A stretch of 64,000 nt of DNA, from NCBI GenBank assembly GCA_014762645.1, contig JABURP010000071.1, positions 1 to 64,000 of the forward strand, in the 5' to 3' direction. The translations under genes and the position numbers were made by a program. Source of the stretch: Crocinitomicaceae bacterium (GTDB taxonomy: Bacteria > Bacteroidota > Bacteroidia > Flavobacteriales_D > Crocinitomicaceae). Below, piece by piece: positions 20,697-21,759 of this stretch. Below the pieces are notes generated by a model. That model made no database searches. It was not told the origin of the DNA and was given only the letters and a program-made list of their open reading frames with translations. Within the stretch, counting starts at the first letter, position 1; the number at the start of each line of letters is the position of its first letter.

Positions 20697-20771
20697 TCGG
20701 GGGTGAGAGGATTTGTACCTCCGATCTAACCCCCCCAGATGTGCGCTTTATCCGGACTAAGCTACACCCCG
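20697..20771 (-). pseudogene. Decayed tRNA-Pro(GGG)-like gene
   Basis: On the minus strand the 75 nt begin CGGGGTGTAGC and show an acceptor-like stem, a good D arm (GCTT/AAGC) and a T arm (GGAGG/CCTCT), so it is clearly tRNA-derived. CTGGGGG points to a GGG anticodon for proline. Several defects argue against function: the anticodon stem no longer pairs (CACAT against GGTTA), the T loop reads TACAAAT where position 55 should be T, and one extra C in the 3' acceptor strand breaks pairing with C1. Homopolymer sequencing error could explain the extra C and G but not the TAC. Confidence 0.6.
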
Positions 20772-21155: not shown

Positions 21156-21255
21156 AGTAGCCCCGGCAGGAATTACCGATTAGTAATTTGTAAAGCTCAT
21201 AGCATTCGCAACAAATTATCTATCGGCATAAACTTCTCTTCCTGCCACTCCTACT
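21156..21255. repeat. 100-nt imperfect palindrome at the 3' flank of tRNA-Arg
   Basis: The two arms pair in three blocks: AGTAG/CTACT at the ends, GGCAGGAA/TTCCTGCC next, and a CCGAT-TAATTTGT-type arm of about 16 nt in the middle (around 21176-21191 with 21215-21230). The left arm contains the last 16 nt of tRNA-Arg, so part of the palindrome is built from tRNA sequence. It is compatible with a small palindromic mobile element or a structured RNA. Confidence 0.6.
21158..21173 (-). repeat. Extra copy of the tRNA-Arg 3' end (16 nt)
   Basis: TAGCCCCGGCAGGAAT (plus-strand reading) is identical to 21260-21275, the last 16 nt of the intact tRNA-Arg, and lies in the same orientation 102 nt away. 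Direct copies of a tRNA 3' end are the usual scar of integrase-mediated insertion, but only 86 nt lie between the two copies and no integrase is present. Confidence 0.7.
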
Positions 21256-21259
21256 AGCG

Positions 21260-21331
21260 TAGCCCCGGCAGGAATCGAACCTGCATCTAAAGTTTAGGAA
21301 ACTTCTATTCTATCCATTGAACTACGGGGCC
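21260..21331 (-). tRNA. tRNA-Arg (anticodon CCT)
   Basis: The 72-nt cloverleaf is complete. The acceptor stem is GGCCCCG/CGGGGCT with a terminal G-T pair, the D arm is GTTC/GAAT, and the anticodon stem is GAAGT/ACTTT with loop TTCCTAA. The T arm is GCAGG/CCTGC with the canonical TTCGATT loop, and the discriminator is A. No CCA is encoded. It reads AGG codons. The gene is immediately preceded (9 nt) by the stop of a GIY-YIG nuclease gene, and duplicated pieces of its 5' and 3' parts lie on both sides. Confidence 0.95.
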
Positions 21332-21340
21332 AAAACTGGA

Positions 21341-21574
21341 TTACAAAGATTTCAAAAATTCTTTACCTGCTCCACTTTTAAGATATTTTTCTCTGTCTCT
21401 GGCCTGCGTTCTGGATGTATACAGTTCTGTATATATAATCTTCCATGGTCGATAGCCCTTAGTTGATCTTGTTTTACCCGCATTGTGCTCTTTAATTCTG
21501 TTATCAAGGTTTTGAGTGAATCCGACATAGATTCTTCCATCTACAAGACTTTTTAAAGCATATACCGTATACAT
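21341..21574 (-). CDS. GIY-YIG (URI/UPF0213-type) endonuclease
   Basis: This 77-residue protein is essentially one GIY-YIG domain: YTVYALKS (GIY block), RIYVGFTQNLDNRIKEHN (YIG block with catalytic Arg), then KIIYTELYTSRTQARDREKYLKSG with the metal-binding Glu. Such single-domain proteins are widespread but poorly understood; larger relatives are homing and repair nucleases. Here the gene sits exactly between a displaced 5' half of tRNA-Arg(CCT), which ends 3 nt before the ATG, and the intact tRNA-Arg(CCT), which starts 9 nt after the stop. The context suggests a tRNA-targeting mobile nuclease gene (inference). Confidence 0.9.
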   Translation of the reverse strand: MYTVYALKSLVDGRIYVGFTQNLDNRIKEHNAGKTRSTKGYRPWKIIYTELYTSRTQARDREKYLKSGAGKEFLKSL

Positions 21575-21630
21575 AAAAAACTTCTATTCCCTGCCTGCCG
21601 GCAGGCAGGTATCCATTGAACTACGGGGCC
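21575..21630 (-). pseudogene. Displaced 5' half of tRNA-Arg(CCT) interrupted by a palindrome
   Basis: On the minus strand it reads the first 21 nt of tRNA-Arg (21630-21610), then a 20-nt perfect palindrome, then tRNA nucleotides 22-33 (21589-21578, GAATAGAAGTTT). Identity stops at T33, directly before the anticodon. After TTT the ATG of the GIY-YIG gene follows. It cannot make a tRNA because the 3' half is absent. It is a 33-nt split direct repeat of the intact tRNA 5' half. Confidence 0.85.
21590..21609. repeat. 20-nt perfect palindrome within the half-tRNA
   Basis: CCTGCCTGCCGGCAGGCAGG is fully self-complementary. It is inserted cleanly between nucleotides 21 and 22 of the tRNA-Arg 5' half, at the D-loop/D-stem border. 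As far as I recall, similar TGCCGGCA-core palindromes are frequent dispersed repeats in environmental Bacteroidota genomes; that recollection is not verified here. Confidence 0.8.
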
Positions 21631-21642
21631 ATTTTTCTTTGT

Positions 21643-21711
21643 GGCCGCGTAGTGAAATGCCTGTCCCGGCAATTAGTGTCCTTTGACACTTTGTCGGGAA
21701 ACTACGGGGCC
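21643..21711. repeat. 69-nt nested palindrome beginning with the tRNA-Arg 5' end
   Basis: The outer arms 21643-21653 (GGCCGCGTAGT) and 21701-21711 (ACTACGGGGCC) pair with one mismatch. The right arm, read on the minus strand, equals tRNA-Arg nucleotides 1-12. Inner arms are TCCCG/CGGGA (21664-21668 with 21695-21699) and AGTGTC/GACACT (21675-21680 with 21685-21690) around a CTTT loop. It looks like a second broken tRNA 5' end that became one arm of a hairpin element. Confidence 0.7.
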
Positions 21712-21759
21712 AATATCTTATGGGAAAGCAAAAATATATAATTCATGGAATAGATTAAA

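Follow-up and report, generated by a model that had tools for sequence, protein, structure and literature searches.

How a nuclease gene can lie among broken copies of a tRNA gene while the tRNA itself remains whole is the question raised by one locus (positions 21156-21711) in the 64,000-nucleotide stretch of DNA from a Crocinitomicaceae bacterium that was analyzed here (the window). All of its features lie on the minus strand and are described in the 5' to 3' direction. The array starts with an outer displaced remnant that exactly matches nt 1-12 of tRNA-Arg(CCT) (21700..21711), followed by a hairpin insertion recognized by sequence and fold (21641..21700), which runs from TTCCCGA to CGGGACAGGC and then into the reverse complement of the tRNA 5' end (ACTACGCGGCC). 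Next comes a displaced half tRNA (21578-21630), in which nt 1-21 (21610..21630, 100% match) and the matching nt 22-33 (21578..21589, ending directly 5' of the anticodon) are separated in the D-loop by a 20-bp perfect palindrome, CCTGCCTGCCGGCAGGCAGG (21590..21609). After a TTT follow a 77-aa ORF for a GIY-YIG nuclease of the Slx1/UPF0213 type (21341..21574; Pfam PF01541, E=6e-18), a spacer of 9 nt, and the intact tRNA-Arg(CCT) (21259..21331; ARAGORN; Rfam RF00005, 68.6 bits). The array closes with a second hairpin insertion, on the T-loop side and without a GIY-YIG gene (21174..21258, again by sequence and fold), and with another outer displaced remnant, a copy of nt 57-73 of the tRNA (21157..21173, 100% match). 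This second insertion carries the conserved GAGAAGTTTATGCCGA (21223-21238) and a closing hairpin, ATCGGTA, and its arm GGCAGGAA is complementary to the 3' copy of the tRNA.

The partial copies are also recovered by BLAST within the locus (nt 1-21, E=4e-8; nt 57-73, E=1e-5). Both outer remnants are part of long hairpins (DNA fold z = -5.6 and -4.8), the former value being that of the 21641..21700 insertion. A promoter-like sequence of the Bacteroidota type, TATATATTTTTGC, precedes the array (21728..21740, minus strand); its assignment is inferred, and if correct it would drive the whole array. The GIY-YIG gene is the sole ORF between the tRNA repeats, with no integrase or other gene, and an integrase island was rejected as a candidate on this ground. 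A tRNA-Pro-like sequence, possibly a decayed tRNA, lies nearby at 20698-20771 on the minus strand (Rfam, 35.9 bits; no ARAGORN call). The pieces that the first-pass annotation of this DNA had listed are all present in the minus-strand order that it gave. Its half tRNA of nt 1-33 does end just before the anticodon but is not continuous, the palindrome between nt 21 and 22 having been overlooked, and its extra copy of the tRNA 3' end is real but 17 rather than 16 nt long.

The layout recurs at four other tRNA genes of the same genome, which rules out chance. This genome has seven GIY-YIG homologues at E <= 0.001, and five of them, including that of the window, are at tRNA genes and follow the same logic; the other four belong to the adjacent Gly(GCC) and Leu(TAA) genes, to Pro(TGG) and to Ala(GGC). 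The Gly locus mirrors the window closely, with nt 1-12 and a hairpin (a unit resembling the 21641..21700 insertion), a half tRNA with D-loop hairpins, the nuclease and the intact tRNA, after which come a GAGAAGTTTATCCCGA hairpin and the final 17 nt of the tRNA. At the Ala(GGC) locus the order is reversed: the intact tRNA and a terminator come first, then the nuclease, a 3' part of the tRNA, and the same terminator again. The remaining two homologues are near a contig end, and no tRNA was seen beside them.

We extended the comparison to all matches at E <= 1e-10 in 99 related genomes, of which 63 loci were examined. A tRNA gene lies within 700 bp of 45 of these homologues, on the same strand in every case, while by our own estimate the chance expectation for same-strand proximity is about 1% (about 45 tRNA genes per 3.5 Mb). 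Same-orientation partial copies of the adjoining tRNA were found at 36 of these 45, and four of the remaining loci (L016, L019, L048, L050) have broken tRNAs or fragments without an ARAGORN call. Among named species, 62 of 79 loci are near a tRNA, mainly tRNA-Met, in a sample that was picked with a Met-type query; these loci are mostly from Bacteroidota, with a few from Ignavibacteria and Cloacimonadota. Other tRNA genes with a GIY-YIG gene and half-tRNA copies, for which the first-pass annotation had recommended a search, thus exist both in the same genome and in relatives, and the element of the window, which it had modeled as an insertion, belongs to a large family that has both a 5'-side and a 3'-side form.

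The same annotation had named two observations that would refute an insertion into tRNA genes, namely homologues at unrelated sites without half-tRNA repeats and tRNA remnants without the nuclease. Both do occur, in small numbers, and they narrow the claim without overturning it. In one clade, three GIY-YIG genes (L049, L051, L066) lie directly 3' of the tmRNA gene (ssrA) on the same strand, with no obvious long tmRNA duplicate. At four loci in three genomes of at least two genera (L025, L027, L034, L045), the GIY-YIG gene lies antisense within an IS91-like transposase ORF, which is split immediately 5' of its HPHLHC (HUH) motif. The IS91-like label comes from reading the translation, without a family search. 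Such an insertion in a conserved catalytic motif of a transposase resembles homing.

The distribution is patchy: when 100 genomes of the order were surveyed at E <= 1e-10, 59 had at least one copy, the copy number ranged from 1 to 11, and the tRNAs that carry copies varied even within one genus. The unit is often repeated in tandem (L043, L044, L126, L135, L137, L172, L175). Contigs often terminate at the elements (L014, L017, L122, L139, L152, L174); assemblies probably break there, so that copy numbers are underestimated. Nothing similar to the protein of the window was found in the phages or plasmids searched, and PADLOC gave only weak generic matches to the candidate system PDC-S14.

The nuclease itself is little more than a catalytic domain. 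Residues 1-67 of the 77 form the GIY-YIG domain, no separate DNA-binding domain is present, and the protein ends after the nuclease domain, without the RING domain that is found only in eukaryotic Slx1. The core residues Y5, Y16, G18, R26, H30 and E62 are invariant in 32 homologues, and the catalytic Tyr, Arg and Glu of Slx1-type domains are conserved. Profile searches gave 1zg2 (5e-14), 1ywl (1e-13), SLX1 (3e-8) and, after these, I-TevI (0.0098); judged by its sequence, the protein belongs to the Slx1/UPF0213 group rather than to the I-TevI/Seg cluster of homing endonucleases. It is under purifying selection, with a median dN/dS of 0.14 over 226 pairs, not all of them independent. In a tree built on an unbiased sample, the nucleases cluster by the isotype of the adjoining tRNA (20 changes against 38.8 after shuffling; none of 200 shuffles gave a value as low), demonstrating that nuclease subclades track tRNA isotype.

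These properties bear on two alternative explanations. If tRNA loci were simply general insertion hotspots for integrases and recombination, the nuclease gene could be a passive passenger, and tRNA genes are indeed classical integration sites; the lack of an integrase or any other gene in the unit, the uniform orientation and the link between nuclease subclade and isotype leave this very improbable. The nuclease could alternatively have been domesticated by the host for tRNA gene repair, copy-number control or expression, with the fragments as by-products. Purifying selection, a chromosomal location outside phages and plasmids, and the constant strand would all suit such a role, but the patchy occurrence, the varying copy number, the differing tRNAs within a genus and the apparent health of the empty loci do not, and we regard it as distinctly improbable.

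The strongest evidence on how the arrays arise comes from alleles with and without the nuclease. An empty allele of the window's own locus was not found: the neighboring MBL gene is present in the genus, and synteny is not kept. The tRNA-Arg(CCT) of the window shares 95% identity with its counterparts in other families, while the same-genus genomes G001 and G002 lack a close match (the best is Arg(TCG), at 76%); it was either gained along with its element or lost from these two genomes. As the own locus offered no empty allele, filled and empty alleles were compared in other genera. Seven genomes of genus g10 (Fluviicola) have a tRNA-Met with no nuclease gene nearby. The filled tRNA-Met allele of genome G165 (L200) reads, from the tRNA outward, intact tRNA, a different terminator, nuclease, nt 20-37 and nt 48-74 with a palindrome between them, a second terminator, a GAGAAGTTTATGCCGA hairpin followed by nt 58-74 and, finally, the terminator that directly follows the tRNA in the nearest relatives. 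The distal terminator matches the native one of the empty alleles L197 and L199 at 46/48 and 44/48 positions, respectively, while the proximal terminator reaches at most 33/58 to either, and the inner terminators have no comparable match in them. The upstream flank agrees with that of the empty L199 at 85/92 positions, and the restored tRNA is identical to the tRNA of the empty alleles.

The inner terminators resemble foreign ones. The middle one has a hairpin, GGTCAATCGAAAGATTGGCC, in common with the native terminator of another species, and the proximal one is similar to that of genome G150 (47/62), whose upstream flank is unrelated (49/100). The incoming sequence therefore came from elsewhere and not by simple duplication, and the fragments were displaced outward in serial events. 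A Flavobacterium locus (L137) similarly has two consecutive units with the Flavobacterium-type terminator outermost. A search of 399 genomes with a Flavobacterium tRNA-Met flank as a DNA query (E 1e-30) returned no match and is uninformative.

For tRNA-Arg(CCT), one genus provides all three states behind the same upstream gene: an empty locus (G099), a nuclease on the 5' side (G086) and a nuclease on the 3' side (G095). The comparison with and without the nuclease that the first-pass annotation had called for can thus be made at this isotype. The filled locus L037, whose empty counterpart is L257, and locus L028 have sister nucleases (support 94), and the tRNA-Arg(CCT) copies of both are interrupted by a palindrome at the 21/22 position that is also used in the window. 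Filled and empty alleles within one genus, for tRNA-Met as for tRNA-Arg(CCT), show that the old half is displaced together with the old terminator or promoter, and that an intact tRNA stays. The outline of the annotation's model, in which a GIY-YIG gene with a replacement half tRNA entered a tRNA gene and restored its function, is supported by these alleles. One qualification is that the outer remnants of the window belong to separate hairpin insertions without a GIY-YIG gene.

The same data can be read as amplification, in which the nuclease breaks its own neighborhood, recombination multiplies segments of tRNA plus nuclease, and surplus tRNAs decay, so that no new alleles are entered. The frequent tandem units fit this explanation, a SegB amplification of tRNA-Tyr has been published (PMC13096335), and L028 and L037, with the element on opposite sides of the tRNA within one genus, look like differing survivors of an array. 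However, plain duplication would repeat one terminator, whereas at L200 and L137 the inner terminators differ from the outermost, native one. Plain tandem duplication as the whole story was rejected for this reason, and we consider the amplification account unlikely, although segmental amplification like that of SegB probably contributes to the tandem arrays.

A further clue lies in where the tRNAs are broken and in what fills the breaks. Outside the Met loci, 50 of 70 internal fragment ends fall in unpaired tRNA positions, against 32.3 expected (P=1.6e-5); the counts take in related loci and are not fully independent. At the Met loci the breakpoints are 37/38 and 47/48, and nt 38-47 are replaced by a hairpin of 14-16 nt. 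Of 80 inserts at fragment junctions, 69 have a perfect stem that is 6 bp or longer, and 67 exceed 95% of their shuffled versions. The type of palindrome seen in the window is also scattered elsewhere in these genomes without a nuclease; over the 99 genomes its count correlates with nuclease presence only weakly, as judged by eye. REP/RAYT elements were considered and set aside: the Y1 transposase is absent, the unit has no other ORF, and the palindromes are scattered in the genome.

The hairpins without a GIY-YIG gene follow the pattern X'-GARAAGTYTATSCCGA...TCGGSA-X, where X is the tRNA 3' end from the T-loop. They include the insertion at 21174-21258 of the window, members at L076, L200, L026 and the Gly locus (L002), and further loci. 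Hairpins with GARAAGTYTATSCCGA were found in 14 of 99 genomes (none with the reversed control) and commonly adjoin apparent tRNA 3' ends; it is possible that they are a separate non-coding element that targets tRNAs.

Such features could point to a hairpin-guided, single-strand insertion comparable to that of REP/IS200-like elements, where folded palindromes and tRNA stem-loops would be cut by the Slx1-like nuclease and pasted into loops. Stems at most junction inserts, junctions in tRNA loops, hairpin arms complementary to the adjoining tRNA fragment, and the presence of the structure-specific SLX1 among the nearest nucleases of known structure would all be accounted for. No strand-transfer enzyme is encoded, however, and palindromes that occur without the nuclease may be independent insertions. 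A folded-single-strand mechanism is the best account of loops and hairpins and the one with the least direct support, and we think it improbable. We see somewhat more in a broader interpretation, possible although still unlikely, that a bare Slx1-type nuclease reading the fold of tRNA genes defines a new class of mobile element. Hairpins and tRNA stem-loops would be its ends and targets and loops its insertion sites, and essential tRNA and tmRNA genes could be parasitized because a complete copy remains after each insertion.

The most economical account remains homing by gene conversion between tRNA genes. We lean, with only slightly more confidence than doubt, toward the interpretation that a minimal homing-type gene-conversion element, built from a single GIY-YIG nuclease gene plus tRNA-gene sequence, occupies a tRNA gene at this locus. 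The nuclease would first cut a tRNA gene that has no element, at a loop or close to one. The two ends of the break would then pair with the homologous sequences of a copy that carries the element and has tRNA sequence on both sides of the nuclease gene, and repair would copy all of the sequence in between. As the donor provides the half that is missing, the recipient would end up with a whole tRNA, the nuclease gene and a displaced old half, and the flanking tRNA sequence of the donor would act as homology and spare part at once. In the window, the two smaller hairpin insertions, on the D- and T-loop sides, would have come before or after the nuclease element. The data directly demonstrate the arrangement itself, the fact that it recurs in many genera and at many isotypes, the displacement of the old half with the native terminator or promoter side, the isotype clustering of the nucleases and the purifying selection on them. 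Cutting of tRNA genes by the protein and spread by gene conversion are inferred, no cleavage or movement having been observed, and a function of the hairpins in inactivating or protecting that displaced half is likewise an inference.

Several points weaken the homing account. Since the restored tRNA of L200 equals that of the empty alleles, the occupied allele should be cut too, unless recognition needs more than the tRNA; with a tRNA restored without recoding, self-avoidance is unexplained. The protein has no DNA-binding domain and belongs by its sequence with Slx1/UPF0213 rather than with homing endonucleases, the role of the hairpins is unexplained, and, with no match in the phages or plasmids searched, a vehicle is missing.

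We found no published description of these elements in the open-licence literature, which does not make priority certain. To judge from their recurrence, they seem to form a widespread family of tiny selfish elements that target essential tRNA genes and have apparently not been described. With copies in more than half of the genomes sampled from the order, the element would be the smallest of its selfish nuclease kind that we know of and an apparently unrecognized reason why broken tRNA fragments occur next to tRNA genes. It would also offer a testable role for the bacterial Slx1/UPF0213 nucleases, whose function is unknown, and it suggests how an element can reside in an essential gene with no intron involved, since a complete copy is left behind each time.

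Known systems share single features with these elements. Tyrosine-integrase islands in tRNA genes supply a replacement tRNA end and leave the displaced end as a repeat, as here, but the present element has no integrase and consists of a single gene in about 0.3-0.4 kb. Group I introns with homing endonucleases occur in tRNA-Arg(CCT), the same target gene, and use the same enzyme superfamily; this candidate was rejected because the intact tRNA is contiguous and Rfam found no group I intron. The closest sequence relatives of known structure, the Slx1/UPF0213 proteins 1zg2 and 1ywl (PDB), are bare GIY-YIG domains like the present one. The function of the prokaryotic proteins of this group is unknown, with a predicted role in DNA repair, and a 2006 survey traced the selfish GIY-YIG members to the UvrC-type lineage and not to Slx1 (PMC1564403), whereas the nuclease described here is of the Slx1/UPF0213 type although its family is apparently selfish.

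The closest analogues are phage SegB and the fungal mitochondrial mORF gene hybrids. SegB of phages T4 and T6 is a free-standing GIY-YIG homing endonuclease linked to tRNA genes, and it shares with our elements the position beside tRNA genes, the recombination and the tandem repeats of tRNA segments; it differs in being phage-borne and of the homing-endonuclease lineage, and neither half-tRNA restoration nor hairpins have been described there (PMC13096335). The mORFs replace gene ends in Allomyces macrogynus (atp6) and Glomus (atp6, atp9, cox2, nad3): an endonuclease ORF with a replacement gene end is joined to the host gene, the native end is displaced downstream, a close relative has an empty allele, and in one case (atp9) the endonuclease is of the GIY-YIG type (PMC3630166). 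An endonuclease ORF beside a replacement end, with the native end displaced, is found at L200, L137, L037 and the window, and empty alleles in close relatives are available for two of these (L197 and L199 for L200, L257 for L037). The mORFs occupy mitochondrial protein genes, encode larger LAGLIDADG or GIY-YIG proteins and, in the described cases, replace the 3' end only, whereas the present element uses bacterial chromosomal tRNA genes on both the 5' and 3' sides, has a bare 77-aa Slx1-type domain, and leaves a displaced copy that contains hairpins. Anatomically, and by analogy, the two would operate in the same way.
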